DNA of 64,000 nucleotides from Tunturiibacter gelidiferens (GCF_013410115.1 NZ_JACCCV010000001.1:1364001-1428000); one strand, 5' to 3'; numbered from the stretch's first letter, positions 5,837 through 43,980 are shown. Program-made: numbers and translations. The notes: a model not told the origin generated them from the letters alone.

Positions 5837-5901
5837 ATTTCGGAATGACGTCCCTGCGAGGGATCGGTCTTGAGGGAAGTCGTACCGACGTGTTGCTTCG
5901 A

Positions 5902-5932: not shown

Positions 5933-5933
5933 G

Positions 5934-8666: not shown

Positions 8667-8685
8667 ATGGGGCTAACGTAGTCGT

Positions 8686-9716: not shown

Positions 9717-10063
9717 CCGTGTTACTGGAGTTCATTGTTTCGTGGTTCCGATTGTTGGGCAAGTATCTTTTGGGTAGTAGCTATTCGGGGTCAGATCCTA
9801 TGAGATGAATGGTGACTTAGGTTACGTCGGCCCACATGGGATTTCGACGAAGTATTCCGTGACTTGGTTTCTCGTTATCCAAATTGGGAGATAGTTCTTT
9901 GGATCGAGGCGAAAAGAGAGCAAACGTGTGTCAATCATCTGTAATACTGCGGTTATTAGGCTTTCAAGTCATTGTGAGATTTGCCGTGTCAGAATAGATC
10001 CTGACTTTGCCGATGCAATTCGGGTTGTACTAGGCGGGGCGTTTAGGAAGAGAGATTGTGGTA
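9717..10063. other. Divergent intergenic region, no gene seen
   Basis: A 347-bp AT-rich gap between two divergent glycosyltransferase genes. No convincing promoter consensus, hairpin or small gene was identified. Confidence 0.5.
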
Positions 10064-13655: not shown

Positions 13656-15413
13656 GGTTCAACGGCTCCCATGGAAGGCGGATTCGGACGGCTGACACCG
13701 TTGTAATCGGTGGCCGGAACGCCAGTATAGGTTATTCCGGTTCCCACCGCCGCGCTTCCAGAGGAGATGTTGAAGTTGAAGTTATCGAGTTCGGTAGCAG
13801 TGAAGGTGCTGCCAGTTCCCACGGGCTGACTGATGAAGTCCGGGGTGACGCACTTCTCGTTCGCGTAGCCGGTAGGGCAGGTGAAGCCGTGTCCTATGCC
13901 GTAGTAGAGGTTGTTGCTGCGATTGATGGTGCCTATGACGTAGCCGGAGGTACTGCCGTTGGGAGGGGGTTCCTGGAAGTACCAGGCTCCGGGTCCGCCC
14001 TGTTGTCCGCCGAGATTGTAGGTTGCGGGGTTGTCGTAGCCGACGATGATGTTGTCGTGGAAGTTGAGGGTGGCTCCGCCGCATCCATTACCGTTTGCTC
14101 CCTGGACGCCTGGAGCATCCCAGCAGGAGATATCGAAGATGGTGGGTGAGTAGGTCACGATGGTGTTGTTGGCGATGGTGATGGTGCTGTTCTGCCGGAA
14201 GTCGAAGGGTAAGGTATCTTCAGAACGGCAGAAGTCGGCGAGGTTGGCGTTGTAAGTGCTTGGCGTACCGGTGATGGGATAGGCCATGCGTATGCAATCG
14301 CCGATGGCGACGTTGTTGGTGAGCACTGTGGTGCCGAAGTTGCCTCCGATTTTGAAGGTTCCTCCGTTGTTGGAGTAGGCGATGGAGTTGGTGATGCTGA
14401 GCGTGTAGGGGCCGCCGGTGTCGATGTGGCCGAGGTCAAGTCCGTCCTGGGTGTTGTAGATGAACTGCGAGTGATCGATAGTGGCGGAGAGACCGGTGCC
14501 GTGCGGGGTTCCAACACCGTCGCCGTAGCCGCCGGTGCTCTGGCTATAGCAGGAGGCGACCGGGATGGTGTGGACAGCAGGGTACTCCTGGTTGCATCCA
14601 CTCCACTCGATGGTGGAGTAGAGGAAGTGCCAGTCGCCGTTGACCATGGGAGTGGCGTTGCCGTCGTCGAAGTCCCAGCCTGCGCCGCCGTTGAAGGCTA
14701 TGTCGCATCGCAAGCAGGTGACCAGACCGCCGATGGGCCCTTTAATGCCGCGGCCGATATGGCCGTGGATCCACATATCCTGCATGAGCAGATCGTGGGT
14801 GGTGTTGTCGGTGTGAATGCCGTCAGAGTCGTAGTCATCCGCGGAGCCACTGGTGCAGGAGGCTGGAATTGCAGGGCTTCCGAAGGCTATGCACTGCGAG
14901 TGGCGTGTCACTTCGAGGCACTCTACGTCTACGTACTTGGCGCCGGTGAGGTTTAGAGCTTCGGTGACACCGAATCCGCCGAAGATCTGCGTGAGTTGCG
15001 AGCGATTGGTAACGCCGCCGCTGTTGCAGGAGGCGTAGTTCTCACCCAGGATGCGGGTGTGCTGGCTGGCTGTTCCTGCGGGGATCGGGGGGTTGTAGCA
15101 GCCGTAGTTGCCGCCGCCGCCGAAGCACCAGGTGTAGCCGGCGCCGCAGCCTGCACCGCTGCAGCTTCCGGGAGCCTTATCGTAGCCGATGCGCCACGGT
15201 CCGCCGCGGAGGATGACGGTGTCGCCGCCCGCGATGACCCAGGCGTCGTTGCCGTAGCTCTGGTCATCCCAGAGGTAGCGCGGATCTTTGAAGGCGCAGT
15301 GCTGGTTGGTGCCGGTGCCGGAGTAAGCCACGTCGGCCTTGCCGTCGCACTGGCCAGTCGTGACATGCGCGGAGTAGCGGGTGCCGCCGTCGGGACGGAT
15401 GTACCAGGTCGTG
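13652..15413 (-). repeat. Long direct repeat A1 (beta-helix module)
   Basis: This 1.76-kb segment encodes the beta-helix end of the 2261-residue protein. It aligns without any gap to 21032-22793, with mostly scattered single-base changes. The similarity continues into the last He_PIG domain of each gene. It marks a relatively recent duplication or gene conversion. Confidence 0.85.
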
Positions 15414-18400
15414 CCTGGGTTCGGCGGTGCGGCAGCTGCGATGGTGATTGCGGCTGAAGCGGATTGGGTCTGGGCGGGGCTGCTGTTGTCGGTGACGGTT
15501 GCGGTGAAGCTGGAGGTGCCGGTGGCGGTGGGCGTGCCGGAGATGATGCCGGTGGTCGCAGCCAGGGTGAGGCCTGCGGGCAGACTGCCGGAGGTGATCG
15601 ACCAGGTGTAGGCCGGAGTGCCGCCAGTTGCTGTCATCGGGGCAGAGTAGGCAGTGCCGTCGGTGCCGGAGGTTAGTGTCCCGGTGGTGATGGTGAGCGC
15701 CGGAGTCGTGATGGTGAACGAGACGGATGCAGACTTCGTCTGTACGGGGCTGGAGGAGTCGGTGACTGTGACGGTGAGACTGACAGTTGTGGCTGCGGTT
15801 GGTGTGCCGGAGAGGATGCCGGTGCTGGCTGCGAGGCTGAGGCCGGTGGGCAAGCTTCCCGTCGTGATGGACCAACTATAGGGAGTCGTGCCGCCGGTTG
15901 CGGTGAGGGTCGCGCTGTATGCCTTGTTCGTCGTGCCTGAGGCGAGAGTGGAGGAAGAGGTGATCGCGAGTGCAGGTGTGCCCGCCGCGATGGTGAGTGA
16001 GAGGGTAGCGGTTGCAGTCTGCTGGGTGGAGCTCGAGTCTTTGACCGCTACGGTGATGGAGAAGCTGCCATTGGCTGTGGGCGTGCCGGAGATGATGCCG
16101 GTGCTGGCCGAGAGGCTGAGTCCTGCCGGAAGGCTTCCTGAGGCGATTGACCAAGCGTAGGGGGCTGTGCCGCCGGTTGCGGTGAGGGTTGAGCTGTAGG
16201 CCTTGTTCGCCGTGCCGGAGACAAGCGTGGAAGAAGAGGTGATCGCGAGTGCCGGTGGAGCGACTGCGAGTGAGAGAGTAGCGGTTGCAGTCTGCTGGGC
16301 GGAGCTCGAGTCCTTGACCGCTACGGTGATGGAGAAGCTGCCGCTGGCTGTGGGCGTGCCGGAGATGACGCCGGTGCTGGCGGAGAGGCTGAGTCCGGCA
16401 GGGAGGCTTCCCGAGGAGATCGACCAGTTATAGGGAGCTGTTCCGCCGGACGCGGTAAGGGTGGCGCTGTAGGACTTATTCGCCGTACCTGAGGCGAGAG
16501 TGGACGACGAGGTGATGATGAGTGCAGGCGGAGCGATGGTGAATGTAAAGGCGCCGTTTGCAGTCTGTTGGGTGGAGCTTGAATCTTTGACCGCTACGGT
16601 AATCGAGAAGCTGCCGCTGGCAGTGGGCGTGCCGGAGATGATGCCTGTGCTGGCGGAGAGGCTGAGTCCGGCAGGGAGGCTTCCAGAGACGATTGACCAG
16701 CTATAGGGAGCTGTGCCGCCGGTCGCGGTGAGCGTCTTCGAGTAGCTCGTGTTTTGGGTTCCGGCGGGTAAGGATGTGGTGGTGAGCAGCAACGCTGGAG
16801 GTGCGATGACGAGTGAGACTGCGACGGACTTTGATTGAGCAGGGTTCGATGCGTCGGTGACGGTTGCGGTGATGTTGGAGGTTCCGTTTGCCGTGGGAGT
16901 ACCGGAGATGACGCCTGTGCCGGCGGAGAGGCTAAGTCCGGCGGGTAAGCTGCCGGAGGTGATCGACCAGCTGTAGGGTGTGGTGCCGCCGGTTGCCAGC
17001 AGAGCGGTTGAGTAGGTTGTGCCCTGGGTTCCCGCGGGCACCGACGTGGTGGTGATGGCGAGGGCAGGAGGAGCGATGACGAGTGAGAGTGCAGCAGACT
17101 TCGTCTGGGCGGGATTTGAGGCGTCCGCAACGGTGACGGTGATGTTGAAGGTTCCGTTTGCTGTGGGAGTACCGGAGATGAGGCCTGTGCTGGAGGAGAG
17201 GCTCAGTCCGGCGGGTAAGCTGCCGGCGGTGATCGACCAACTGTAGGGTGTCGTTCCGCCGGTTGCTGCAAGGGCGTTTGAATAGGCTACCCCCTGAGTT
17301 CCGGTGGGAAGGGCTGAGGTGTTGATGACCAGCGCCGGTGCCGCAATGACGAGCGACGCGGATGCAGACCTGGTCTGGGCAGGGTTCTCTGCGTCGGTGA
17401 CCGTCGCGGTGAAGTTGAAGGTTCCGCTGGCCGTTGGGGTGCCGGAGATCAGGCCCGTGCTGGAGGAGAGGCTGAGACCGGCAGGAAGGCTGCCTGTGCT
17501 GATCGACCATGCATATGGGGTAGTGCCACCGGTTGCGAGCAGGGAGGCGGAGTAAGCGGTTCCTTGAGTGCCTGGCGCGAAGGCCGAGGTTGTGATTGCC
17601 AACGCCGGCGGTGTGATGAAGATTGAGAGAGCGACCGACTTGGTCTGCGCCGGGCTTTCAGCGTCAGTGACGGTAGCGGTGATATTGAATGTTCCGTTCG
17701 CTGTTGGGGTGCCAGCGACGATGCCGGTGGTTGTACCCAGGCTGAGTCCGGCTGGCAGAGCGCCAGAGGTGATCGACCAGCTGTAGGGTGCCGTTCCTCC
17801 AGTTGCCTGGACGCCGGTTGAATAGGCAGAGCCCTGGGTTCCAGAGGGCAGGGACGAGGTGATGATGGCCAGAGCCGGAGGTGCGATGACAAACGAGATT
17901 GGGGCGGATTGTGTCTGCGCAGGACTTGAGGAGTCAGAGACGGTGGCGGTGAAGCTGACGGTTCCGCTGGTTGCCGGTGTGCCGGAGACAGTGCCGTTAG
18001 ATGCGAGGGTGAATCCGCTGGGGAGGCTGCCGCCGGTGATGGACCAGCTGTAAGGAGCGGTGCCCCCGGTGGCGTTGAGAGTGGCGGTGTAGGGGATGTT
18101 CGTTGTACCGGAGTGCAGGGTGCTGGAGGTGATCGCGAGCGGCGAGCCGGCAGCCACCACAGAGAGAGGCAAGGTTACCGTTGCTGTCTGCGCGGTTGTG
18201 GCTGAGTCTTTGACCATCACGGTGACGCTGAAGCTGCCGCTTGCGGTGGGTGTCCCGGAGACGATGCCGGTGGCCGTGCCGAGAGTAAGTCCGGCAGGCA
18301 GGCTGCCTCCGGTGATCGACCAGGTGAAGGGCGCGGTGCCTCCGCTCGTGCGCAGTGTGCTCGAGTAGCTCGATCCTTGAGTGGCGGAGGGGAGCGTCGA

Positions 18401-20437
18401 TGTGAGGATGTTGAGGGTTGCGGGAGCGATGGAAAGAGAGACTATCGCGGACTTGCTCTGCGCTGGGCTGGCTGCGTCAGAGACGGTGGCGGTGAAGGTG
18501 AAGCTTCCGCTGGCGGTGGGTGTGCCGGAGACTACGCCAGTGGTTGAGCCGAGGGTGAGACCGGCCGGCAGAGCGCCTGCGGTGACCGACCAAGTGTAGG
18601 GGGCGGTGCCTCCAGACGCCTCAAGCGCGTTGGAGTAGCCTGAACCGTTCGTTCCGGAGGGGAGGGTGGAAGAGGTAATGGCCAGTGTCGCCGGTGCGAT
18701 GGTGAGGGAGACTGCGACGGACTTGCTCTGAGCGGGGCTGGCTGCGTCGGTGACGGTTGCGGTGAAGTTGAAGGTGCCGCTTGCAGTTGGCGTTCCGGAG
18801 ACGATGCCGGTGGAAGAGACAAAGATAAGCCCTGAAGGTAGGCTGCCTGAGGTGATCGACCAGGTGTAGGGACTCGCGCCTCCCTGCGCCTGGATGGGGA
18901 CCGAATAGCCAGCGCCGACTGTTCCGGAGGGAAGGTTTGAAGAGGTGATGACCAGTGTTGCGGAGGCGATGGTGAGCGAAACTGGAACAGACTTGCTCTG
19001 TGCGGGACTGCTCGCGTCGGTGACGGTGGCGGTGAAGTTGAAGGTTCCAGTGGCGGTGGGTGTGCCCAGGACTGAGCCGCTGGTTGCGAGGCTGAGTCCT
19101 GCGGGGAGACTGCCTGAGGAGACCGACCAGGCATAAGGGGCGCTGCCTCCGGCCGCCTGGAGGGATTGAGAGTAACTTGAACCGATCGTTCCGGGCGCCA
19201 AGGTTGAGGACGTGATGGTCAGCTGCGTGGGTGCGATGGAGAGCGTGACCGCGGCATGTGCCGTCTGGGTGGGGCTCGACGAGTCAGTTACGGTGACGTT
19301 GAAGGGGAAGGTTCCGCTGGTTGTCGGCGTGCCTGAGATCGAGCCGTTGGAGGCGAGGCTGAGTCCTGCGGGTAGAGAGCTGCTGGGCGACCAGGTGTAA
19401 GGTGCGGTGCCTCCCGCTGCGTTGAGGGTGGCGCTGTAGGGCTGGGTTGCTGCGGCTGCAGGCAGCGTGCTTGAGGTGATTGAGAGCGGTGATCCTGCGG
19501 CCACGATCGAGAGGGACAACGAGAGGGCCGTGGTCTGCGGAGTGGAGGAGGAGTCCTGAACGGTTACGGTGATGGGGAAGTTGCCGCTCGTCGTGGGTGT
19601 GCCGGAGATCAGGCCGCTGCCTCCGAGGGTGAGGCCGGTGGGCAAGCTGCCTCCGGTGATCGACCAGAGGTAAGGTGCGGCGCCTCCATTAGCCTGCAGA
19701 ACACCTGAATAAGACGAACCGCTGGTGCCGGTGGGAAGAGCGGACGAGGTAATGGTCAGGGGAGCCGTTGGCGGAACGATCGGCGCAGCTGGGGCCACCG
19801 ACAAGGAGATTGTGGCGGTTGTCGACAGTGTGGGCGAGCTGGAATCGGTCACCGACAGGACAAAGGAGTAGCTGCCGCTGGTCGTGGGGGTACCGGAGAG
19901 AATGCCGGTGCTTGCGGAGAGGTTGAGACCTGCGGGTATGTTTCCCGAAACGAAACTCCAATTGTAGGGAGAGGTTCCTCCCGTCGCCGAAAGAGTTGCA
20001 GAGTACGCGGTGCCGGAAGTAGCTTGAGGTAAGGAGGTCGCCGTGATTGCGAGCGGCGTGAGGGACTTACCGGTTGCAGTTGCCGAGACAACTACGGGAA
20101 TGGTCTGCGACTCAGCCCTCGTATCCTGATTCTGCACCTGCAGCTTGGCCGTGGAGGGCGTGGCGAGATTGTTGCTACCGATGGTCCCGGTCAGAGCTGT
20201 GGAACTGACCAGGGAGGTAGAGATTGGCGAGCCGTTCCAGAGAATGACGGCGGCGCTGGTGAAGTTCGTGCCCGTGACCTTGAGGGTCTGAGTTTGAGAA
20301 CCCGCGGGGATCGTCTGCGGAGTGACCTGACTGATGCTTGGAGCTGCCGGTCCGGTGATGCCCGATCCGCAACCGAGACCAAAGATGATGAGGGTGATGC
20401 TCAGACTCGCAGCGATCGTCTTGATTACTTTTCCCAA
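13652..20437 (-). CDS. Giant surface lipoprotein: TIG + 17 He_PIG Ig domains + beta-helix module
   Basis: A 2261-residue protein. Residues 1-23 form a lipoprotein signal with a Cys23 lipobox (FGLGC). Residues about 34-118 look like an IPT/TIG domain. Residues about 132-1672 are 17 consecutive putative-Ig (He_PIG) repeats of about 90 residues, each with the pattern GGTAPYSWSI, GSLPAGLSL, TGxISGTPTA, and TVTDxSxPAQ. Residues about 1675-2261 form the cysteine-rich beta-helix module, almost identical to that of the gene at 21032. The start is TTG (20437); no ATG gives the lipobox at the right distance. Likely an outer-surface stalk with a polysaccharide- or ligand-binding tip. It is coupled to the 574-residue paralog downstream. 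Repeat number may vary between strains. Confidence 0.85.
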   Translation of the reverse strand: MGKVIKTIAASLSITLIIFGLGCGSGITGPAAPSISQVTPQTIPAGSQTQTLKVTGTNFTSAAVILWNGSPISTSLVSSTALTGTIGSNNLATPSTAKLQVQNQDTRAESQTIPVVVSATATGKSLTPLAITATSLPQATSGTAYSATLSATGGTSPYNWSFVSGNIPAGLNLSASTGILSGTPTTSGSYSFVLSVTDSSSPTLSTTATISLSVAPAAPIVPPTAPLTITSSALPTGTSGSSYSGVLQANGGAAPYLWSITGGSLPTGLTLGGSGLISGTPTTSGNFPITVTVQDSSSTPQTTALSLSLSIVAAGSPLSITSSTLPAAAATQPYSATLNAAGGTAPYTWSPSSSLPAGLSLASNGSISGTPTTSGTFPFNVTVTDSSSPTQTAHAAVTLSIAPTQLTITSSTLAPGTIGSSYSQSLQAAGGSAPYAWSVSSGSLPAGLSLATSGSVLGTPTATGTFNFTATVTDASSPAQSKSVPVSLTIASATLVITSSNLPSGTVGAGYSVPIQAQGGASPYTWSITSGSLPSGLIFVSSTGIVSGTPTASGTFNFTATVTDAASPAQSKSVAVSLTIAPATLAITSSTLPSGTNGSGYSNALEASGGTAPYTWSVTAGALPAGLTLGSTTGVVSGTPTASGSFTFTATVSDAASPAQSKSAIVSLSIAPATLNILTSTLPSATQGSSYSSTLRTSGGTAPFTWSITGGSLPAGLTLGTATGIVSGTPTASGSFSVTVMVKDSATTAQTATVTLPLSVVAAGSPLAITSSTLHSGTTNIPYTATLNATGGTAPYSWSITGGSLPSGFTLASNGTVSGTPATSGTVSFTATVSDSSSPAQTQSAPISFVIAPPALAIITSSLPSGTQGSAYSTGVQATGGTAPYSWSITSGALPAGLSLGTTTGIVAGTPTANGTFNITATVTDAESPAQTKSVALSIFITPPALAITTSAFAPGTQGTAYSASLLATGGTTPYAWSISTGSLPAGLSLSSSTGLISGTPTASGTFNFTATVTDAENPAQTRSASASLVIAAPALVINTSALPTGTQGVAYSNALAATGGTTPYSWSITAGSLPAGLSLSSSTGLISGTPTANGTFNITVTVADASNPAQTKSAALSLVIAPPALAITTTSVPAGTQGTTYSTALLATGGTTPYSWSITSGSLPAGLSLSAGTGVISGTPTANGTSNITATVTDASNPAQSKSVAVSLVIAPPALLLTTTSLPAGTQNTSYSKTLTATGGTAPYSWSIVSGSLPAGLSLSASTGIISGTPTASGSFSITVAVKDSSSTQQTANGAFTFTIAPPALIITSSSTLASGTANKSYSATLTASGGTAPYNWSISSGSLPAGLSLSASTGVISGTPTASGSFSITVAVKDSSSAQQTATATLSLAVAPPALAITSSSTLVSGTANKAYSSTLTATGGTAPYAWSIASGSLPAGLSLSASTGIISGTPTANGSFSITVAVKDSSSTQQTATATLSLTIAAGTPALAITSSSTLASGTTNKAYSATLTATGGTTPYSWSITTGSLPTGLSLAASTGILSGTPTAATTVSLTVTVTDSSSPVQTKSASVSFTITTPALTITTGTLTSGTDGTAYSAPMTATGGTPAYTWSITSGSLPAGLTLAATTGIISGTPTATGTSSFTATVTDNSSPAQTQSASAAITIAAAAPPNPGTTWYIRPDGGTRYSAHVTTGQCDGKADVAYSGTGTNQHCAFKDPRYLWDDQSYGNDAWVIAGGDTVILRGGPWRIGYDKAPGSCSGAGCGAGYTWCFGGGGNYGCYNPPIPAGTASQHTRILGENYASCNSGGVTNRSQLTQIFGGFGVTEALNLTGAKYVDVECLEVTRHSQCIAFGSPAIPASCTSGSADDYDSDGIHTDNTTHDLLMQDMWIHGHIGRGIKGPIGGLVTCLRCDIAFNGGAGWDFDDGNATPMVNGDWHFLYSTIEWSGCNQEYPAVHTIPVASCYSQSTGGYGDGVGTPHGTGLSATIDHSQFIYNTQDGLDLGHIDTGGPYTLSITNSIAYSNNGGTFKIGGNFGTTVLTNNVAIGDCIRMAYPITGTPSTYNANLADFCRSEDTLPFDFRQNSTITIANNTIVTYSPTIFDISCWDAPGVQGANGNGCGGATLNFHDNIIVGYDNPATYNLGGQQGGPGAWYFQEPPPNGSTSGYVIGTINRSNNLYYGIGHGFTCPTGYANEKCVTPDFISQPVGTGSTFTATELDNFNFNISSGSAAVGTGITYTGVPATDYNGVSRPNPPSMGAVEP
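15420..20044 (-). repeat. Tandem array of 17 He_PIG-coding repeats (~270 bp each)
   Basis: Coding repeats of about 264-280 bp are arranged head to tail within one gene. Neighbouring units in the middle and downstream part (domains 9-15) are the most alike, for example those around 16000-17800. This suggests expansion by unequal crossing-over. It is a coding array, not a CRISPR array. Confidence 0.9.
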
Positions 20438-21031: not shown

Positions 21032-22793
21032 TTATGGTTCGACAGCTCCCATGGAGGGCGGGTTCGGACGACTGACTCCGTTGTAGTCGGTGGCCGGAAC
21101 GCCGGAGTAGGTGACTCCTGTTCCTGCTGCCGCGCTTCCTGAAGAGATGTTGAAGTTGAAGTTATCGAGTTCGGTAGGGGTGAAGCTCGTACCGTTTCCA
21201 GTGGGCTGCTTGTCGAAGTCCGGGGTGACGCACTTCTCGCTGGAGTAGCCGGTGGGGCAGGTGAAGCCGTGGCCGATGCCGTAGTAGAGGTTGTTGCTGC
21301 GATTGATCGTGCCGATGACGGTGCCAGACTTGCTCCCACTGGGGGCTGCTTCCTGGAAGTACCAGGCTCCGGGTCCGCCTACCTGACTGCCCAGGGGGTA
21401 GGTAGCGGGATTGTCATAGCCGACGACGATGTTGTCGTGGAAGTTCAACGTGGCTCCGCCGCATCCCTTACCGTTTGCTCCCTGGACGCCTGGAGCGTCC
21501 CAGCAGGAGATATCGAAGATGGTGGGTGCGTAGGTCACGATGGTGTTGTTGGCGATGGTGAAGGTGCTGTTCTGGCGGAAGTCGAAGGGGAAGGCATCGC
21601 TTGCCCGGCAGAAGTCTCCGAGATGGGCGTTGTAAGTGCTCGGCGCTCCGCTGATCGGGTAAGCCATTCTGTCGCAGTCTCCGATGGCCACATTGTTGGT
21701 GATCATCGCGGTGCCGAAGTTGCCTCCGATCTTGAAGGTTCCTCCGCTGTTGGAGTAGGCGATGGAGTTGGTGATGCTGAGGGTGTAGGGTCCGCCGGTG
21801 TCGATGTGGCCGAGGTCAAGTCCATCCTGAGTGTTGTAGATGAACTTCGAGTGGTCGATGGTGGCGGAGAGACCGGTGCCGTGCGGGGTGCCGACGCCGT
21901 CACCGTATCCGCCATCGCTCTGGCCGTAGCAGGAGGCGACAGGGATGGTGTGGACTGCCGGGTACTCCTGGTTGCATCCGCTCCACTCGATGGTGGAGTA
22001 GAGGAAGTGCCAGTCGCCGTTGACCATGGGAGTGGCGCTGCCGTCGTCGAAGTCCCAGCCTGCGCCGCCGTTAAAGGCTATATCGCATCTGAGGCAGGTA
22101 ACCAGGCCGCCGATGGGTCCCTTGATGCCGCGGCCGATGTGGCCGTGGATCCACATATCCTGCATGAGCAGATCGTGGGTGGTGTTGTCGGTGTGGATGC
22201 CGTCGGAGTCGTAGTCGTCTGCCGAACCGCTGACGCAGCTTGCGGGAACTGCAGGACTGCCAAATGCGATGCACTGTGAGTGGCGTGTCACTTCGAGGCA
22301 CTCTACGTCTACGTACTTCGCTCCGGTGAGGTTGAGCGCTTCGGTGACGCCGAATCCACCGAAGATCTGCGTGAGCTGCGAGCGGGTAGTAACGCCGCCG
22401 CTGTTGCAGGAGGCGTAGTTTTCACCTAGGATGCGGGTGTGCTGGCTGGCCGTTCCTGCGGGGATTGGGGGGTTGTAGCAGCCGTAGTTTCCGCCGCCGC
22501 CGAAGCACCAGGTGTAGCCGGCGCCGCAGCCTGCACCGCTGCAGCTGCCGGGAGCCTTATCGAAGCCGATGCGCCACGGTCCGCCGCGGAGGATGACCGT
22601 ATCGCCGCCGGAGATGACCCAGGCGTGGTTGCCGTAGCTCTGGTCATCCCAGAGATAGCGGGGATCCTTGAAGGCGCAGTGCTGGTTGGTGCCGGTGCCG
22701 GAGTAAGCTACGTCGGCCTTGCCGTCGCACTGGCCGGTCGTGGCGTTCGCGGAGTAACGCGTTCCGCCGTCGGGACGGATGTACCAGGTCGTG
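21032..22793 (-). repeat. Long direct repeat A2 (beta-helix module)
   Basis: This is the second copy of the 1.76-kb beta-helix segment, co-linear and gap-free with 13652-15413. The two copies are 7.38 kb apart in the same orientation, so recombination between them would delete one gene and fuse the other. Confidence 0.85.
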
Positions 22794-23473
22794 CCAGAGC
22801 CGCTCTGCTGCGATCCTTCCGCGGCAACGGCGATGGAGGTCGCAGCGGATTTGGTCTGGTCTGGGTTGCTGTTGTCGGTGACGGTTGCAGTGAAGCTGGA
22901 GGTGCCGGCGGCGGTGGGTGTGCCGGAGATCATGCCGGTGGTCGCAGCCAGGGTGAGCCCTGCGGGCAGTTTGCCGGAGGTGATCGACCAGGTGTAGGCC
23001 GGAGTGCCGCCACTGGCCTTCAACTGCGAAGAATAGTTTGTGCCGTCGGTACCTGCGGCTAGCGTCGCCGAGGTGATCGAGAGTGGCGAGGGTGAGGCGT
23101 TAGCAGTTGCAACAGCAACGGTGAGGCTGACGGTCTTGGTCTGGGCCGGCTTTGAGGAGTCCGTCACAGAGAAGGTAAGCGGGAACGATCCGTCCCTCGT
23201 CGGTGTGCCGTAGAGCAGGCCTGTGCCACCGTTGAGAGCGAACCCTGGGGGATGAGTGCCAGAAACAACCTTCCAGTGGTAAGGCACGGTGCCGCCGGTC
23301 GCTTTGAGAGAGGCGCTATAGGCCTTCTCAAGGGTAGCTTGGGGTATCGAGGTGGTGCTGATGGCAAGCGCTGTGGCGGCGTTCGCTGTCTGTGACGGGG
23401 AGGTCGAATCCAGACAGAAGAAGATAAGTGCGAGGGTGATGCTGGTTACGAGGGTTCTGAATACTTTTCGCAA
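21032..23473 (-). CDS. Secreted protein: two He_PIG domains + beta-helix module
   Basis: An 813-residue paralog of the 2261-residue protein. After a signal segment (about 1-34, hydrophobic core SITLALIFF) come two He_PIG domains (about 36-222) and a cysteine-rich beta-helix module (about 228-813) starting TTWYIRPDGG and ending GAVEP. I place the start at TTG 23473: it has GGAG 6 bases upstream and gives a proper signal peptide, while the GTG at 23689 would put the conserved promoter block inside the gene. Cys20 is not in a clean lipobox, so it may be secreted rather than lipid-anchored. The function is probably surface binding; no catalytic site is visible. Confidence 0.82.
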   Translation of the reverse strand: MRKVFRTLVTSITLALIFFCLDSTSPSQTANAATALAISTTSIPQATLEKAYSASLKATGGTVPYHWKVVSGTHPPGFALNGGTGLLYGTPTRDGSFPLTFSVTDSSKPAQTKTVSLTVAVATANASPSPLSITSATLAAGTDGTNYSSQLKASGGTPAYTWSITSGKLPAGLTLAATTGMISGTPTAAGTSSFTATVTDNSNPDQTKSAATSIAVAAEGSQQSGSGTTWYIRPDGGTRYSANATTGQCDGKADVAYSGTGTNQHCAFKDPRYLWDDQSYGNHAWVISGGDTVILRGGPWRIGFDKAPGSCSGAGCGAGYTWCFGGGGNYGCYNPPIPAGTASQHTRILGENYASCNSGGVTTRSQLTQIFGGFGVTEALNLTGAKYVDVECLEVTRHSQCIAFGSPAVPASCVSGSADDYDSDGIHTDNTTHDLLMQDMWIHGHIGRGIKGPIGGLVTCLRCDIAFNGGAGWDFDDGSATPMVNGDWHFLYSTIEWSGCNQEYPAVHTIPVASCYGQSDGGYGDGVGTPHGTGLSATIDHSKFIYNTQDGLDLGHIDTGGPYTLSITNSIAYSNSGGTFKIGGNFGTAMITNNVAIGDCDRMAYPISGAPSTYNAHLGDFCRASDAFPFDFRQNSTFTIANNTIVTYAPTIFDISCWDAPGVQGANGKGCGGATLNFHDNIVVGYDNPATYPLGSQVGGPGAWYFQEAAPSGSKSGTVIGTINRSNNLYYGIGHGFTCPTGYSSEKCVTPDFDKQPTGNGTSFTPTELDNFNFNISSGSAAAGTGVTYSGVPATDYNGVSRPNPPSMGAVEP

Positions 23474-23575
23474 AATATGCTCCGTACAAAGAGGAAATTG
23501 GTTAGTCAAATCACGCTGCCTGAGCCGAAAGTAAATCGGGGCCCGGACATCCGGATGAATATTTTGTTTTGAAAT

Positions 23576-23592
23576 GGTTACTACAGTTACCC
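23576..23592 (-). promoter_or_regulatory. Conserved upstream 17-mer, copy 2
   Basis: GGTTACTACAGTTACCC differs by one base from 20533-20549. It sits about 103 bases before the TTG start of the 813-residue gene. Confidence 0.5.
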
Positions 23593-23657
23593 TGCAACGG
23601 AAACCGGGGCCCACTTCGTCTATCGCGAGGCAAAGTCTCTCATCTGCATGTCCAGCT

Positions 23658-23698
23658 AGGTTTGCATGCAGTGAGTTCGCAAATGACACAAAGAAACA
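23658..23698 (-). promoter_or_regulatory. Conserved upstream block, copy 2
   Basis: This block is similar to 20610-20650 (AGGTTTGCATGCAGTGAGTT in plus-strand reading). Conservation outside coding sequence between diverged paralogs suggests a shared promoter. Confidence 0.45.
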
Positions 23699-24037: not shown

Positions 24038-25243
24038 TTAATTTTTATACCATAGCCGGAGAGGCTGAACGAATTTGTAACACTCAATTGTTTTATCCGC
24101 AATTGACAACCAGGATTCCTCTCCAAAGTTCATCTTCCGCACATTTTCTGCAAGTCGTTCTCTTAAAAGAGCATCTTCCAGGAGCTGAACGAGCGCATCG
24201 GCAAGTTCGACTGGTCTTTGGGGGTCGAAGAAAAATACATTTTCGCGGTCGGTGAGCAGCTCACGAAAGACGGGCAGATCGCTGGCGACGATGGTTTTGC
24301 CTAAGGCTAGCCCGGTTGCAAGCGCTCCGCTGGTCGTAATCGCGCCATACGGATAGACGACGATGTCTGCGGCTCGATAGAGGGCTACGAGCTCTTCCGT
24401 GGAGATGAAGCGTGGGTGAAGCCGGACGCGCCGGAGTTTCAGGCTGCGAATTTGTTCGCGAATTTGATCGAGTAGTTCTGTTGGTCCTGTACCAACGATC
24501 AGCAGGTCGACGTTCTCGACGGTTGCTTCAACGTTCCGCCAGGCCTCGAGGAGGAGATCGATTCCCTTGTAGGGAGAGATGATGCCTTGCCATAGCACGA
24601 GCATCTTTCGTGGATCCAGCTCGAAGCTCTGCAATGTTTGTTCGGCAGTGGCAGGCAGATCGTAGAAGAACGGACCATGAGGGATGACCGCGACCTTTTC
24701 TCCTTTCACAGAGAACTCAACCGCGAGCCCCTCTCGAATACTCTCCGAGTGACAGATGATCCGGTCGACCATTTGATAGAGGTCGTGGAAGATCTGCTTG
24801 TGACTCTCGCCGGTGTTATGGGGGAGAAGATCGTGGACCGTCAGCACGATCTTAGAGCCGCGTCGGCGGCAGAACTGAACGAACCAGAGATCGAGCGGTA
24901 GGCGCGAGGTCAGCATGGGAAGAAACTGCACATGGACAACATCGGGCGAAGAGATGAGGAAGCGCACCGCCAGCGCAGCGAGATTGAGAAGTGATTCAAG
25001 GAGCTTCAGAACTCTGCGTGGGAGTCGCGGCAATCGGAACTTGCCGACTACGTCCATCAATCCTGGGTCGAGCATGATGCCGCGATTTGAAAAGCAACCG
25101 GGGTCGAGATAGTAAGAGATGGAACCGACCATGAGATTGACGTGTTTCTTCAGGAGCGCCTTCGACAGATACGCCGTGTAGTAGGGCACAGTGGCCCAGA
25201 GATCCATCATGAAGACGGTTGGTCGCCGGGTATTTTCCGTCAC
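24038..25243 (-). CDS. GT4-type glycosyltransferase
   Basis: A 401-residue GT-B glycosyltransferase. The C-terminal Rossmann half carries LWQGIISPYKGIDLLLEAW, DLLIVGTGPTELL, ADIVVYPYGAITTSGAL and a weak version of the E-x7-E region (SGALATGLALGKTIVASDLP). The N-terminal half is the acceptor side with VVHVQFLPML and LTVHDLLPHNTG. It overlaps the upstream GT4 gene by 4 bases (ATGA) and is the last gene of the operon that starts at 30416. It likely adds one sugar to the repeat unit on the cytoplasmic face. Confidence 0.9.
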   Translation of the reverse strand: MTENTRRPTVFMMDLWATVPYYTAYLSKALLKKHVNLMVGSISYYLDPGCFSNRGIMLDPGLMDVVGKFRLPRLPRRVLKLLESLLNLAALAVRFLISSPDVVHVQFLPMLTSRLPLDLWFVQFCRRRGSKIVLTVHDLLPHNTGESHKQIFHDLYQMVDRIICHSESIREGLAVEFSVKGEKVAVIPHGPFFYDLPATAEQTLQSFELDPRKMLVLWQGIISPYKGIDLLLEAWRNVEATVENVDLLIVGTGPTELLDQIREQIRSLKLRRVRLHPRFISTEELVALYRAADIVVYPYGAITTSGALATGLALGKTIVASDLPVFRELLTDRENVFFFDPQRPVELADALVQLLEDALLRERLAENVRKMNFGEESWLSIADKTIECYKFVQPLRLWYKN

Positions 25244-26406
25244 TTGGTCTTTCCTTGCGGGACTGCGGAGGAACTTGAGGGAGTGGCTGCGGTTTGCCTC
25301 TTGGTTGCGATCGCCTGTTCGTAGATGCGGAGGTAGTCTGCTGTCATCCGCTGGGCGGAAAACTCTTCTTCAACGAGTTTTTTCGCGGCGCTCCCGAGAT
25401 TCTGTCGCCGCGCCTGGTTGGGCAGGAGTTTTATGATCTCCGACGCCAGAGTTTCGACGTTTTCCGCAGGGATGAGCACACCCGTGCGACCATCGAGAAC
25501 CACGGTTGGCACCGCGCCTACTGCGGTTGCAATAATTGGCAGGCTGCTTGCCATGCCCTCGAGAATGGCAATCGGCAAGCCCTCGCGGCGAGACGCGGAG
25601 ACCATGATGTCGAACGAGGCGTAGACAGAAGACATGTCGTCTCGACGTCCGAGCATGGAGACATTTCTCCGAATCTGCAACTCGTCGATGAGCAACTCAA
25701 GTTGTTCGCGATCCGGTCCCTCGCCGACTACGACGAACTTTGTAGACGGAAGCTCAACCAGGACGCGCGCGGCCGCTCGAAGAAAGATGTCTACGCCCTT
25801 CTCCGTGGCGAGCCTCCCAACCAGTCCTACGATTGGAGGTTGATCCTGGGAAGAGACACTTCGCAGCAACGGAGACGCGTTATCGAAGGGGCGGAGGTCG
25901 ATGCCGTTTCGAACGATATGAACCCTGTCCTTGCGAACGCCAGCCTTCAACAGGCGCTGGCTCACCTCTTCGGACACTGCAACTACTGCCGCGTAACTCC
26001 GGAGCACGAAGCGGTCCGCCATCCCGTATAGGGAGACAGCCAGATCGTTGTCGTACCAAGTGTGGCAGGTGGAGATGAGCGGAACGGCCGATTGGCGCAG
26101 GGCGAAGTAGGAGTATATGTCTGCTTTGTAGCCGTGCGCGTGGACGATGTCCGCGTTGGTGCGAGCGATAAGCTCTCGGATGCTTGCAGGTACGGTCCGA
26201 TCAATCTGTCCCGCGCAGGAGATCAGATGCGAGTCGATCCCCTGCGCAATAGCAACTTCGTGAAGCTGCAGGTTCGGGTTCGCGGAGTTCGAAAAGACTC
26301 CGAGAACGCTCGAATGCGAGCTCTGGTTCAGAGTGCGCGACATGTTCAGGATCACCGCCTCTGCGCCGTACATGCCTCCGCTACTGATGATGTGCAGGAT
26401 CTTCAT
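25240..26406 (-). CDS. GT4-type glycosyltransferase
   Basis: A 388-residue retaining GT-B glycosyltransferase. N-terminal Gly-rich loop SSGGMYGAE (about 9-17); donor-site motifs VGLVGRLATEKGVDIFL, VVVGEGPDREQLE, and SASRREGLPIAILEGMASSLPII, with the conserved EGLPIAILE (E-x7-E). It overlaps the deacetylase gene by 26 bases and the next GT4 by 4 bases, so the three are translationally linked. Sugar specificity is not predictable. Confidence 0.92.
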   Translation of the reverse strand: MKILHIISSGGMYGAEAVILNMSRTLNQSSHSSVLGVFSNSANPNLQLHEVAIAQGIDSHLISCAGQIDRTVPASIRELIARTNADIVHAHGYKADIYSYFALRQSAVPLISTCHTWYDNDLAVSLYGMADRFVLRSYAAVVAVSEEVSQRLLKAGVRKDRVHIVRNGIDLRPFDNASPLLRSVSSQDQPPIVGLVGRLATEKGVDIFLRAAARVLVELPSTKFVVVGEGPDREQLELLIDELQIRRNVSMLGRRDDMSSVYASFDIMVSASRREGLPIAILEGMASSLPIIATAVGAVPTVVLDGRTGVLIPAENVETLASEIIKLLPNQARRQNLGSAAKKLVEEEFSAQRMTADYLRIYEQAIATKRQTAATPSSSSAVPQGKTK

Positions 26407-27172
26407 GAGTAGCAGCTCCTCCGTCGTTGGTGTCCGGCTCTTGTCGATTGAGGAGAGCCCAAAGCTTTTCGTAGAGCCGGTCGCCTAGCAGAGTCTTGGC
26501 GGTGGCCTTTATGTGGTGCTGTCGTTTGAGGCTGGATAAGATGCCGCTCTCCGGTTCGAAGAGTTGTGCGATCCAATCCAGCGGCATGTCGCCGCGAATG
26601 TTCAGACGACCTACGGTTGTTCCGGTTGGTTGCGGTTCTAGTTTTGGGACCGAGGTAAAAACCTTGGTGTACCCAGCCTCGCGACAGGCATCGAGAACGC
26701 GTTGATTCGATCGTCCGCCGGGCAGCGACATCCCTGTGACTGGTACTCCGAGCTTGTCTTCGAGCGTGAGTCGCGCTTCGACTAACTCTTTATGTAACTG
26801 CGCCGGGTCGCAATGGGTGAGGAGTGCGTGGGACCATCCGTGTGCGCCGATCTGTTGGCCGGCTTGCTGCAGTTCGCGCAGCTCCTGCCATCCCATGTAG
26901 CCCGGCCTCTGGCCCGTCCAGCCTGTTGTGATGAAGAACCATGCTTTGATGGCGCGCGATTGCAGGATAGGCAAAGCGAACTCGAAGTTCGAGACATGCC
27001 CGTCGTCGAAGGTGATCTCGGGAAAAAGGCCTGGCGGGTGTCTTTTTCTTAGTTCGAGAAAAAGGTCGACCTGTTTTTCAAACTGGTCTGTCTCGACGAC
27101 GTAGGAGTACTCGCTTCGGCTGGGCCGCAGTTCGTGATAGAGAAGATAGAGTCTGTCTGGCGGCCTGGTCAC
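26381..27172 (-). CDS. Polysaccharide deacetylase (NodB-homology, CE4)
   Basis: A 263-residue CE4-type deacetylase. Visible active-site motifs: TFDDG (54-58) with the catalytic and metal-binding Asp pair, and HGWSH (111-115) supplying the two metal-binding His. There is no signal peptide or membrane helix, so it probably acts in the cytoplasm on a lipid-linked or nucleotide-bound N-acetyl sugar, as in other EPS loci. It lies between the VOC gene (85-bp gap) and the GT4 pair (26-bp overlap) in the operon. Confidence 0.9.
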   Translation of the reverse strand: MTRPPDRLYLLYHELRPSRSEYSYVVETDQFEKQVDLFLELRKRHPPGLFPEITFDDGHVSNFEFALPILQSRAIKAWFFITTGWTGQRPGYMGWQELRELQQAGQQIGAHGWSHALLTHCDPAQLHKELVEARLTLEDKLGVPVTGMSLPGGRSNQRVLDACREAGYTKVFTSVPKLEPQPTGTTVGRLNIRGDMPLDWIAQLFEPESGILSSLKRQHHIKATAKTLLGDRLYEKLWALLNRQEPDTNDGGAATHEDPAHHQ

Positions 27173-27256
27173 CGGATTTGTCCCGATTCAACGAGCGATG
27201 ATTTTCTCTCAAACAGATTGGGAAGCATTGGCTGAATCATACATAGATTGCATCGG

Positions 27257-27685
27257 CTAAATCGCAGCTTCGACGAGTTCGAAGAGTTGGTGGGAGCGGG
27301 TGTAGATCCAAGCGATTCTGCGGCCGTTGAAGGCGACTGCGGGAACCGGCGGGCTGACGATGATGCAGCCGCTATTTTTTGCGTGAGCCACGGCTTGCTC
27401 GATGTCACTGGTCTCGAAGCAGAGGTGGTAGGCCGCACCTCCGCCCTTCGCAAGCATCGCAGTGATGGGAGAGTCTTCGCTGAGAGGCGCGATGAGCTCG
27501 ATCTCAGCTACGTCGTTGTCTGACTTTGCGAGGAAGTTTACGCTGACTTTTTGGATCGGGTCGTCGAATGGGCCGGAGACGACCTTGTAGCCGAACAGCG
27601 CTTCGAGCGCGTCCGTCGTAGGCCCGAGTTTGGGAACCGCTACTCCTACATGACGAAGTTTGAAGCCGAGATCCTCAGCGTTCAA
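27257..27685 (-). CDS. VOC-family metalloprotein (methylmalonyl-CoA epimerase-like)
   Basis: A 142-residue glyoxalase/VOC protein with two beta-alpha-beta-beta-beta modules. Four plausible metal ligands stand at the places expected for methylmalonyl-CoA epimerase: His12, Glu63, His87 and Glu136. It overlaps the ACP gene by 4 bases and follows FkbH. An enzyme acting on an ACP-bound short acyl group (epimerase or isomerase) fits the neighbourhood better than a glyoxalase. That role is inference from order and coupling only. Confidence 0.82.
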   Translation of the reverse strand: MNAEDLGFKLRHVGVAVPKLGPTTDALEALFGYKVVSGPFDDPIQKVSVNFLAKSDNDVAEIELIAPLSEDSPITAMLAKGGGAAYHLCFETSDIEQAVAHAKNSGCIIVSPPVPAVAFNGRRIAWIYTRSHQLFELVEAAI

Positions 27686-27939
27686 AGTGTCGCTCCCTTG
27701 GCGACCAGCTCGGCCTGGATCAGCGAGACGGTGGTCAGCTCCGCGATGCGGGATGGATCGAACTGAACGCCGTACTCGCCTTCGATGGCGAGGATCGCCT
27801 GCAGATGTCGGAAGGAGTCCCAGTTGTCGATGGTGCCGACACCAAGCTCAGGGGTGACCTCTTCGGGCGAGATTTCCAGGATGTCTGCGAGAATGTCACG
27901 AAGCGACGACGGCACTTGCTGAGAACTCATTCGATTCAT
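27682..27939 (-). CDS. Acyl carrier protein of the FkbH operon
   Basis: An 85-residue carrier protein. The phosphopantetheine site is Ser42 in NWDSFRHLQ, the variant seen in stand-alone ACPs that pair with FkbH-like enzymes rather than the DSL of fatty-acid ACPs. Its start lies inside the end of fkbH (44-base overlap; Met4 would give 35) and its end overlaps the VOC gene by 4 bases. It probably receives a glyceryl-type unit from FkbH. Confidence 0.85.
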   Translation of the reverse strand: MNRMSSQQVPSSLRDILADILEISPEEVTPELGVGTIDNWDSFRHLQAILAIEGEYGVQFDPSRIAELTTVSLIQAELVAKGATL

Positions 27940-29845
27940 TTCCTTCCAGGGTTAGCCACTTGGGGCTCTCAGGAGCCGCGGTGGTCAGATCAAGTTGATA
28001 AAAGATGGAGTCAGGGGAGGCACCGCTCGATGAGGCATCTTTGACAAAGCCGTGATCGAGATAAAAGTCTGCGCAAGGAGAGTTTTTCTTCGTCGGAATA
28101 AACTCGCCTACCAGACGCGTGGCGCCCGCTCTGACGGCATTCGCTCCAAGGTGCGCCAACAGCGCGGTTTCGATGCCACGCCCAATCACTCGACACGATA
28201 ACAACAAGGAATCGATGGAACACGTACCCCCTATTGTTCGCGCGAGAGCGAGCCCGACAACTCCAGCATCGCCGAATCGGTCGCGTACGCGAACGGCGAT
28301 TGCCTGGCCTCCTGCGGCGGAAGCGAACTCCTCTACCTCAGCTGTGGAATGCCGGCGTGTGGTGAGATTGAACTGATTTGTCTTGGCGAGAAGTTGAACT
28401 GAACGTGCGAGGGGGGCGTCCAAAGCACTGAGGAAGGTGCAGACGATCTCGAGCGAGGCGAGAAACTCATCGCGATCTCCTGCTGTGTTGGCGAGCTCTG
28501 CTCGTTGAGCCTGCGCTTTGTATTCGTTCAGACGATTGAGGTCGTCGTCGGTGACGACAGCGGCGTCGAAGAACGGTTGAGACGAAAGGAGCTCAACCAG
28601 CTTCCATGGTTCCTCGACCGGAGCTGCGATCACGGCCACCTCGGGCAGTTGTTGACGGATTGCTTCACACTCTACCGGGTTGTCATCGACAAAGACGAAG
28701 GAGTCGAGGCCGAGAGAAAGCTCTTCTGCAAGCTCACGAATAGAGGTTGCCTTTTCGTTCCAGCTGATCTTCGTCGCGACGAAATGATTCAGGGTGAGTC
28801 CCAGGTCGGCGGCGCGGATTTGAAAGGCCTCGCGAACGTCTGCGTCGTTGTTCTTTGAGACGATGGCGAGAAGGATACCGCGAGACGATAGTTGCTTGAG
28901 ATACCTCTGATATTCGAGGTAGCAGTTGCCCGGGAAGGCGCTGCCGGTAGCGATGCCCTCCGGCCCTTCCTCTCCCAGAACTCCGCCCCATAAGGTGTTG
29001 TCGAGGTCCGTACACAGAACTTTGCGGGGAGCACGAAAGAGCGGGGAGAACGAGCGAACCAGGCCGCGCGAGTAAGCTCCGAAGCAGGCAGAGGCTACGG
29101 GAAGGCGGGATGCCAAAAACATTCGCGCGTCGCGCCAGCTTGCGCGGCCGTGACGGGCTGCAAGATGATCCACATCGAAGAAGACACAGTCTGAGACGGA
29201 ACGGCATAAGGCCGCGAGCTTTTGGTTCAGCTGGTAGACCGCGTTGGTTAGACTGTGGGGGAGGTTCGCCTCTCCGACGTCTCCAAGCGAGGTTTGGTCG
29301 GGAACAACGCAGCCTTGAAAGAGAATGCGCGCAGAGCTGCCGGAGCGAAAGTTTCCCAGCAGCTGAGCGATGCGCGTGACGGATTCTTCGATCTCTACCT
29401 CAACAGCGTCGCCTATACCGTCCGCACAGAGATCTGGCAGACGGCCTGCGATGTCTTCGAGATCCAACAGGATGAAGACGAGGTCAGGCTTGAACTTGGC
29501 GAGGGCGCTTAGGGGATTGAGCAGCTCATCGACGTAAGAGCCGTAGCCACCGATGTTCAGATCGAGGACATAGTTTGACAGCACCGCTTCGGTGGTCAGA
29601 GAGGGTAGGATCGGCTCAATCGTTACTGACCGGACGATGTGAGTTTTGAGTCGTCTGGCTTGCAGTTGGCTCACGAGAGCGTCGCCCAGGGCTGTAAACG
29701 ACGAGGCGCAGAACATAACGTCGGCGGGTTTGCTGGAGGTGGCGAGGAGCTTTCGCGCAACACCTACCGCAGTTGCTGCATCCTGCGACGTCGCGGCCTC
29801 CTTGATAGCGCGGCGCAGTTCCTGTCGCTCTGTATCACTTTGCAT
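27896..29845 (-). CDS. FkbH-like HAD-IIIC phosphatase/glyceryl transferase
   Basis: A 649-residue protein of the FkbH family. Layout: N-terminal SGNH-like region (about 40-270), HAD domain with the catalytic DLDNTLWGG (Asp280, Asp282), VSKNN and FVDDNPVE motifs, and a C-terminal GNAT-like domain (about 480-630). Characterised relatives take 1,3-bisphosphoglycerate and load a glyceryl unit onto an ACP as the start of methoxymalonyl-type extender units. Here the ACP gene follows directly with overlap, but no polyketide synthase module or FkbG/I dehydrogenases are present. A glyceryl-ACP used for polysaccharide decoration is therefore likely (inference). It overlaps the upstream acyltransferase by 11 bases. 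Confidence 0.9.
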   Translation of the reverse strand: MQSDTERQELRRAIKEAATSQDAATAVGVARKLLATSSKPADVMFCASSFTALGDALVSQLQARRLKTHIVRSVTIEPILPSLTTEAVLSNYVLDLNIGGYGSYVDELLNPLSALAKFKPDLVFILLDLEDIAGRLPDLCADGIGDAVEVEIEESVTRIAQLLGNFRSGSSARILFQGCVVPDQTSLGDVGEANLPHSLTNAVYQLNQKLAALCRSVSDCVFFDVDHLAARHGRASWRDARMFLASRLPVASACFGAYSRGLVRSFSPLFRAPRKVLCTDLDNTLWGGVLGEEGPEGIATGSAFPGNCYLEYQRYLKQLSSRGILLAIVSKNNDADVREAFQIRAADLGLTLNHFVATKISWNEKATSIRELAEELSLGLDSFVFVDDNPVECEAIRQQLPEVAVIAAPVEEPWKLVELLSSQPFFDAAVVTDDDLNRLNEYKAQAQRAELANTAGDRDEFLASLEIVCTFLSALDAPLARSVQLLAKTNQFNLTTRRHSTAEVEEFASAAGGQAIAVRVRDRFGDAGVVGLALARTIGGTCSIDSLLLSCRVIGRGIETALLAHLGANAVRAGATRLVGEFIPTKKNSPCADFYLDHGFVKDASSSGASPDSIFYQLDLTTAAPESPKWLTLEGNESNEFSASAVVAS

Positions 29846-30416
29846 CTGTGGTCTCCGCTACCGCGGGGGCGGGGGATTCGACCGCCTTCGGTGCTCTCAT
29901 GATGATGCGGCCGGGTACTCCCATGACCGTCGCGCCGTCTGGAATATTGCTCATGACGAGGGTATTGGCTGCAATCTTTGCGCCACTGCCTACTTTGATC
30001 TTGCCGACCAGCGTCGCGCCTGTGCCGATGTAGACCCGGTCGCCAAGGACCGGCGCGCCTTTGCGGCCCATTGCAGAGGCTCCGATGGTTACGCGATGGG
30101 CGATATCGCAGTTGCTTCCGATGATCGCCTGCGGGTTGATGTGAACGCCGCCGATGTGCGCGATGTAGAGGCCGCCGCCGATCGTAGCCTGGGGATCGAG
30201 ACACATCTCCATGACGACCTCAGAGAACATGTAGGCGAAGAAGTACAAGATCTTTAAAGGAATCCGAATCAGGACAAAAGGGTTTGCAGAGTAGAGCCAA
30301 TTACCAAATCGATAGATCGTGATCGCCCATATCGCGGGGTTCAGCCAAAGCTGTCTCCCGCTATGGCCCATGGATCGGTAACGTGCTATATCTTCGGAGA
30401 ATTTATTCATCTTCAA
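29835..30416 (-). CDS. Hexapeptide-repeat acyltransferase (serine acetyltransferase-like)
   Basis: A 193-residue left-handed beta-helix acyltransferase. An N-terminal helical part includes a hydrophobic stretch about 45-70. It is followed by [LIV]GxxxX hexapeptide turns (about 75-170: PQATIGGG, NPQAIIGSN, HRVTIGAS, DRVYIGTGATLVG, SGAKIAANTLV, PDGATVMGVPG). The likely catalytic His is in DIAHRVTIG. It is the first gene of the overlapping operon with FkbH and ACP. It could transfer the ACP-bound acyl or an acetyl group to a sugar hydroxyl. CysE-like sequence alone does not prove a serine substrate. Confidence 0.85.
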   Translation of the reverse strand: MKMNKFSEDIARYRSMGHSGRQLWLNPAIWAITIYRFGNWLYSANPFVLIRIPLKILYFFAYMFSEVVMEMCLDPQATIGGGLYIAHIGGVHINPQAIIGSNCDIAHRVTIGASAMGRKGAPVLGDRVYIGTGATLVGKIKVGSGAKIAANTLVMSNIPDGATVMGVPGRIIMRAPKAVESPAPAVAETTDAK

Positions 30417-43299: not shown

Positions 43300-43980
43300 A
43301 TGAAGCGGTTTCGTTCCATGGGCGCCATGCTGCTCCTGCTACCAGTTGCGGCCGGGCCACTCGCAGCACAAGTCACATCGAACCCTGCGGCCACGACAGG
43401 TGCAGCACCGAACGCGACGCCAGCAAATCAACAGACGTCCGCTCCCGACACGTCGAAGTCTCCCGCAACGGCAAGTGCGAGCTATGCAGGTCCGATGGAT
43501 GCAGCGCGTTACATTATCGGCCCCGAGGACTCCTTGCAGATAACCGTCTGGAAGGAGCCTACGCTCTCCGGTACGATCCCGGTGCGGCCGGACGGAATGA
43601 TCTCCATGGTGTTGGTGGGAGATATCCCAGCGGCCGGAATGACGCCGACTGCACTGTCGACCGATATCAGCCAGCGACTCAAGAAGTACATCCAGGATCC
43701 CGTGGTCACGGTAGTGGTTCTTGGAGTCAACAGCCAGCGAATTTTTCTGGTAGGCGAGGTGGGTAAGGTCGGTCCCGTCGCCATGAGTCCGGGAATGACC
43801 CCGCTTCAGGCGATTGTCACCGGCGGCGGTCTGACGCAGTTTGCGAACTCGAAGCGCATCTACATCCTTCGAACGATCGCCGGCAAACAGCAGAAGATCC
43901 CGTTCAACTACAAGCAAGCGCTCAAGGGCGAAAATGCGGGGGTCTCGCTTCTTCCCGGAGACACGATCGTCGTCCCATGA
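43300..43980 (+). CDS. Wza/GumB-type polysaccharide export protein
   Basis: A 226-residue exported protein: signal peptide (about 1-24), a Pro/Ser/Thr/Ala-rich spacer (about 25-65), a Poly_export domain starting YIIGPEDSLQITVWKEP, and one SLBB domain (RIFLVGEVGKVGPVAMSPGMT onward) ending GDTIVVP. It is shorter than E. coli Wza and lacks its C-terminal outer-membrane helix, like other XrtA-type export proteins. Start ATG 43300 has GAGGG 7 bases upstream; the earlier in-frame ATG would place extra charged residues before the signal peptide. It overlaps the barrel gene by 4 bases. Confidence 0.9.
   Translation: MKRFRSMGAMLLLLPVAAGPLAAQVTSNPAATTGAAPNATPANQQTSAPDTSKSPATASASYAGPMDAARYIIGPEDSLQITVWKEPTLSGTIPVRPDGMISMVLVGDIPAAGMTPTALSTDISQRLKKYIQDPVVTVVVLGVNSQRIFLVGEVGKVGPVAMSPGMTPLQAIVTGGGLTQFANSKRIYILRTIAGKQQKIPFNYKQALKGENAGVSLLPGDTIVVP

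Follow-up and report, generated by a model that had tools for sequence, protein, structure and literature searches.

The operon described here raises the question of what an FkbH gene and a stand-alone ACP gene do in an exopolysaccharide (EPS) locus, and whether their products could bring an acyl group to a glycan. In the window (the whole 64,000-nucleotide stretch of DNA that was analysed), all seven minus-strand genes listed by an earlier, sequence-only reading were found as ORFs at 24038-30416, with families as named there. The first four in the direction of transcription encode a CysE/EpsC-like hexapeptide acyltransferase (Hexa, 29835..30416; NCBIfam and Pfam matches), FkbH (27896..29845), a stand-alone ACP (27682..27939), and a VOC metalloprotein of the glyoxalase I/methylmalonyl-CoA epimerase group with a TTG start (27257..27685). 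They are followed by a CE4 polysaccharide deacetylase (26381..27172; PF01522, 90 bits) and two GT4 glycosyltransferases accessory with CE4, GT4a (25240..26406; PF00534, 137 bits) and GT4b (24038..25243; PF13692, 80.6 bits). For Hexa, the ATG located two codons inside (30410) is a more likely start than 30416. Overlaps of 4-44 bases had been claimed for most junctions, and by coordinates five of the six do overlap: Hexa/FkbH by 11 bp, FkbH/ACP by 44 bp, ACP/VOC by 4 bp, CE4/GT4a by 26 bp, and GT4a/GT4b by 4 bp. The sole non-overlapping junction is that of VOC and CE4, with a gap of 84 bp.

The claimed EPS setting was confirmed by the presence of Wzx, Wzy, GT2/GT4, Wza, Wzz, and polyprenyl-phosphate sugar transferase genes at 30.7-50.1 kb. 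Between Wza and Wzz, the window contains a 446-aa ORF (43977-45317) with no Pfam match. In addition, two large Ig-repeat proteins encoded on the minus strand (13652-20437 and 21032-23689) have a C-terminal domain in common; the larger one carries a 499-aa tail without a Pfam match. In relatives (loci L034, L035, L039, L051, and L052), the same EPS operon is likewise flanked by homologs of the Ig-repeat proteins.

FkbH is best known from pathways that supply extender units, and the FkbH-ACP pair might work not for a glycan but for a synthase encoded at another place in the genome, to which it would provide an extender unit for a polyketide or peptide. One PKS-type ORF (2753 aa) is indeed present in the host genome, at 2.6 Mb, approximately 1.2 Mb from the operon. 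As had been read from the sequence, polyketide modules are absent among the genes scanned in the window region, and an operon composed of Hexa, FkbH, ACP, VOC, CE4, GT4, and GT4 does not include the usual FkbG/I/J set. A methoxymalonyl-ACP (FkbG-K) set was rejected, as the two dehydrogenases and the O-methyltransferase are missing from the operon with FkbH. The operon lacks an FkbI/J-kind dehydrogenase pair, and its genes overlap one another within an EPS locus, as they also do in relatives; the supply of an extender unit is therefore very improbable.

The individual proteins were therefore considered for what they could do within the locus. FkbH scored 265 bits with TIGR01686 (cut-off 146.65), and its predicted structure comprises an SGNH-like N-terminal domain, a HAD phosphatase domain, and a GNAT-like domain. 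The predicted fold matched BF1531 (Z 26.1), GDSL esterases (Z ~17), MDP-1 (Z 17.1), and GNATs (Z 14-16). Residues D280, D282, T284, K365, D387, D388, and C551 are invariant among 21 sequences; they represent the HAD catalytic residues (Asp pair, Thr, Lys, and acidic motif) and the SCR cysteine. The ACP exceeds the cut-off of the PP-binding family PF00550 (24.6 against 20.8 bits); its predicted phosphopantetheine site is Ser42 in the NWDSF sequence, and the WDS motif is retained in most relatives. The acyl group, the VOC reaction, the acceptor, and the type of bond given below are those that we infer. Judging by family chemistry, FkbH would take a glyceryl group from 1,3-bisphosphoglycerate, dephosphorylate it, and attach it to the ACP through a thioester bond.

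As for Hexa, both of its best NCBIfam matches are below their cut-offs (101.5 against 210.65 bits and 100.6 against 150 bits). Its H87 aligns with the catalytic His of serine acetyltransferases, and A86 and A121 occupy the columns of Asp157 and His193, the serine-binding residues of CysE. Based on the scores and the replaced serine-binding positions, Hexa was rejected as a serine O-acetyltransferase (CysE/EpsC). In its proposed role, it would hand the glyceryl group on to a sugar of the EPS repeat, at either a hydroxyl or an amine.

The VOC protein matches PF13669 with 71.5 bits; its score with the methylmalonyl-CoA epimerase model TIGR03081 (62.9 bits) is below the cut-off of 114.95. The best matches of its structural model (pLDDT 92.8) were 2QH0/3HDP, the Clostridium glyoxalase I (Z ~20; for 2QH0, Z 20.0, rmsd 1.5, 129 aligned), and methylmalonyl-CoA epimerases showed Z of 16.6-18.1. 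Epimerase-like metal ligands had been noticed earlier, and H12, E63, H87, and E136 proved to be invariant. By its predicted fold and these four metal-ligand positions, the protein is a metalloenzyme of the VOC superfamily. Both features are alike in methylmalonyl-CoA epimerase and in the Clostridium glyoxalase I, but the ligand set is H-E-H-E in the window protein and H-Q-H-E in the Streptomyces epimerase. The catalytic Glu of the latter (E43, S. coelicolor) is Ser in the window protein and often Thr in others, which means that an epimerase here would rely on the metal-site glutamates. Glyoxalase I employs metal-site glutamates. Orthology with methylmalonyl-CoA epimerase was rejected on the score below the TIGR03081 cut-off and the missing catalytic Glu. 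The human methylmalonyl-CoA epimerase appears to lack this Glu as well, and the VOC protein may still work like one. Since relatives of the VOC protein generate an enediolate adjacent to the carbon of a thioester or thiohemiacetal, this protein might invert C2 of glyceryl-ACP or perform a related tailoring of the ACP-bound group. This optional step is the least certain of those proposed, and its likelihood falls a little short of even.

A VOC profile built from 13 proteins, with seeds that were partly FkbH-linked VOCs, was used to search approximately 85,000 species genomes. As a result, 41 loci were detected, many of them close relatives, with an independent part of about 20 loci. According to the FkbH profile, 33 of the 41 VOC loci have an FkbH gene in the same orientation at a distance of no more than 6 kb. 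Eight of these 33 are outside Acidobacteria, in records of Limisphaerales, Phycisphaerae, Phycisphaerales, Bacteroidetes, Chlorobiota, Pseudolabrys, Gammaproteobacteria, and Thiohalocapsa. The ACP profile finds an ACP at 35/41 loci. Six of these belong to the eight loci that lack FkbH (with weak matches at L118 and L119), which indicates that VOC follows the carrier protein. Conservation of the gene order had been suggested as a check on the operon; the FkbH-ACP-VOC association does recur, but its order is shuffled, being either FkbH-ACP-VOC or VOC-FkbH-ACP.

A closer comparison covered 61 genomes of relatives; same-genus genomes numbered 36. Strong VOC matches in these genomes adjoin FkbH in 10 of 14 cases, against 2 of about 53 for weaker matches, and most FkbH genes of the relatives occur without VOC. 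The operon recurs in relatives, with Hexa-FkbH-ACP-VOC as the stable part of window-type loci and CE4-GT4-GT4 after VOC at most of them; the stable unit is acyltransferase-FkbH-ACP-VOC. Loci of this composition are mostly found in glycan loci. We conclude that Hexa-FkbH-ACP-VOC probably acts as a glycerylation module on a surface polysaccharide. Directly observed are the genes, the intact catalytic residues of their products, and the recurring company of FkbH, ACP, VOC, and an acyltransferase. In one same-order genome (L041), the genes read FkbH-ACP-truncated hexapeptide protein-VOC; the hexapeptide fragment (9841-10215, 124 aa, C-terminal half only) is retained in place.

Natural losses bear on the role of VOC in the module. 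In the sister genomes G024 and G031 (loci L051 and L052), VOC is reduced to a remnant of about 29 codons in an otherwise intact operon, and approximately 90-100 bases separate the ACP from the CE4 genes. In G018, FkbH and ACP are gone and Hexa and VOC are kept with a 4 bp overlap; this genome has a further FkbH-ACP elsewhere. In G067 and G068, ACP-GNAT-VOC is located on one contig and FkbH on another. The remnant and the other natural deletions show that VOC is dispensable and an optional step. Such a loss pattern would be expected of a stereochemical switch, but an unrelated gene would look identical. The protein could thus be a sugar-nucleotide enzyme or a by-product detoxifier that has nothing to do with the acyl group and is co-located since polysaccharide loci collect such genes. 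The independent loss of VOC and FkbH-ACP is in line with this, as are other VOC types in EPS loci, for example beside RmlA-/RmlD-type genes in L049, and the absence of a co-phylogeny signal. VOC and FkbH distances correlate with r 0.35 when near relatives are included and with r 0.05 after their removal, and co-phylogeny of the two proteins was rejected because the correlation vanishes. The missing strict co-inheritance fits a modular cassette without proving it. The presence of FkbH and ACP at 33/41 and 35/41 loci and the existence of VOC-ACP and PseH-FkbH fusions (see below) argue against an unrelated VOC, which appears quite improbable. VOC proteins of another subfamily were observed in the EPS loci L043, L046, L047, and L049, the last of them preceding a HAD-type hydrolase and following the RmlA-/RmlD-type genes.

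The identity of the acyl group can be approached through loci without FkbH. In L120 and L122, the ACP lies beside an AMP-ligase, which implies that VOC does not necessarily act on a glyceryl group. Another small 2-hydroxyacyl group (lactyl, or methylated or oxidised glyceryl) might then be loaded, altered by VOC, and moved to a sugar by the same module logic. The methyltransferases found beside the module at L097, L113, L114, and L117 would also suit such a group. The window operon, however, contains no ligase, reductase, or methyltransferase, and its FkbH has the residues of the FkbH family; another acyl group is accordingly rather improbable, and glyceryl is preferred. In L120 (3550-12378), the ACP, AMP-ligase, PglD-like protein, and VOC genes are followed by a gene for an NRPS-type protein (about 2000 aa); FkbH was not found in that genome.

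The class of acyltransferase beside FkbH, ACP, and VOC varies among loci. It is CysE-like in the window, PglD/hexapeptide in L107, L112, L120, and L122, GNAT in L045, L105, and L106, MBOAT in L033, L112, L114, and L115, and Antibiotic_NAT (AAC(3)-like) in L110. L045 has the gene order FdtA, DegT aminotransferase, FkbH, ACP, GNAT, VOC, the first two being typical genes of the amino-sugar nucleotide pathway kind. In L117, from a gammaproteobacterial MAG, the genes are PseC, PseF, PseG, a methyltransferase, a PseH-FkbH fusion, a VOC-ACP fusion, and PseI; PseC, PseF, PseG, and PseI each exceed their curated cut-offs. In the first fusion, an N-terminal PseH domain (109 bits, cut-off 93) is joined to FkbH. 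The second (247 aa) begins with VOC and ends with the match to the ACP profile (E 7e-23), of which this very sequence is one of the seeds; TSF replaces DSF in it. These fusions, both from one locus of one MAG, tie FkbH to a sugar-amine acylating enzyme and VOC to a carrier protein. A second FkbH-ACP-VOC set is encoded in the own genome of the host (L033, C1:1004001-1023000, positions 5540-10658), with a 314-aa ORF and a DltB-similar MBOAT gene upstream. It looks like a Dlt-type system in which FkbH substitutes for the alanine-activating enzyme. The MBOAT protein scored 162.5 bits with the DltB model, below the cut-off of 375, and a Dlt D-alanylation system proper was rejected for this paralog, the DltB equivalog cut-off being above its score. 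A broader and more tentative proposal, which we regard as possible and well short of probable, is that FkbH-ACP-VOC is an exchangeable bacterial "glyceryl cassette" that serves hexapeptide, GNAT/PseH, AAC(3)-like, and Dlt-type MBOAT acyltransferases. VOC would then be a new epimerase acting on carrier-bound glyceryl, and the choice of D- or L-glyceryl would be set by the presence or loss of one gene.

The fuller version of the sequence-only reading assumed that CE4 frees an amine that accepts the glyceryl group. The position of CE4-GT4-GT4 after VOC at most window-type loci and the intact CE4 motifs (TFDDG and HGWSH, conserved in type) speak for this acceptor. However, at four loci (L089, L090, L092, and L097) the Hexa-FkbH-ACP-VOC block occurs without CE4-GT4-GT4 after it, and at two more (L088 and L095) the CE4 set is further from VOC, with other gene(s) between. 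In addition, several CE4 enzymes act after export. The four loci where the block has no adjoining CE4-GT4-GT4 indicate that the deacetylase and the two GT4 enzymes are a separable module; CE4 was rejected as an obligate partner, and an amine freed by it is an unlikely acceptor. Of the earlier proposal of a glyceryl decoration module, the co-location of FkbH-ACP-VOC with a changing acyltransferase was upheld and the role of the deacetylase was not.

If the glycerylation module is real, it would make a sugar decoration with few known biosynthetic enzymes accessible to genetics, and its conserved, easily recognised gene set offers candidates for deletion and assay. The range of FkbH would widen beyond natural products to include surface glycans, and a role at the level of the carrier protein is proposed for a VOC protein. 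The gene set is found in a polysaccharide locus of a soil acidobacterium and also in several other bacterial phyla. In the literature searched, no description of an FkbH module with exopolysaccharide, O-antigen, or lipopolysaccharide was found; glyceryl-decorated glycans themselves are already known. PMC8949500 is among the literature points cited for the glycerylation-module reading.

Pseudaminic acid offers one comparison. Pse5Am7Gra of Tannerella forsythia carries an N-glyceroyl group on pseudaminic acid, its glyceroyl gene was reported as elusive (PMC6120980), and the PseH-FkbH fusion of L117 may be compared with it. Among 40 Bacteroidota genomes with a true PseI, FkbH exceeded the cut-off in two; a third, distant FkbH lies about 8 kb from PseI without a nearby ACP or VOC. 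With a clear FkbH in 2-3 of the 40, the idea that FkbH generally belongs to the pseudaminate clusters of Bacteroidota was rejected.

A dimethylglyceric-acid pseudaminate is known in Campylobacter (PMC3068675). According to the passages of PMC7099621 used here, which compare three Campylobacter strains, strains 12661 and 12664 are without it; cj1301, annotated as "epimerase", is absent from 12661, and the fkbH-domain gene cj1302 is a pseudogene in 12664. The link between these losses and the missing modification is drawn by us, not by those passages, and is a lead, not a proof: further genes also differ between the strains, and the state of cj1295 is not given there. In C. jejuni, an fkbH-domain gene is numbered beside an "epimerase" gene, and the glycan bears a glyceric-acid derivative (PMC7099621, PMC3068675). 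That system differs from ours in that it modifies a flagellin nonulosonate, not EPS, and cj1301 is likened to VOC by annotation only.

Other known systems share single elements with the module. The glyceramido sugar of Neisseria PglB2 (GATDH; PMC11130364) carries glyceryl as an amide on a sugar of a cell-surface glycan, but PglB2 is described as an ATP-grasp/phosphoglycosyltransferase, in a description without FkbH, ACP, or VOC (PMC11130364). D-alanylation (Dlt) uses a carrier protein and an MBOAT protein like the paralog L033; FkbH would replace the adenylating DltA, and the window operon has a hexapeptide enzyme, not an MBOAT. The operons for glycerate utilisation in tetronate and methoxymalonyl polyketide pathways (for example Mad7/Mad8, Mad14/Mad12; PMC7489565) have an FkbH homolog and a separate ACP in common with the window, whereas the window operon lacks a FabH-like ring former, dehydrogenases, and a PKS and has an acyltransferase, VOC, and an EPS setting instead. 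The module is therefore not a methoxymalonyl set but a credible addition to the known glyceryl chemistry.
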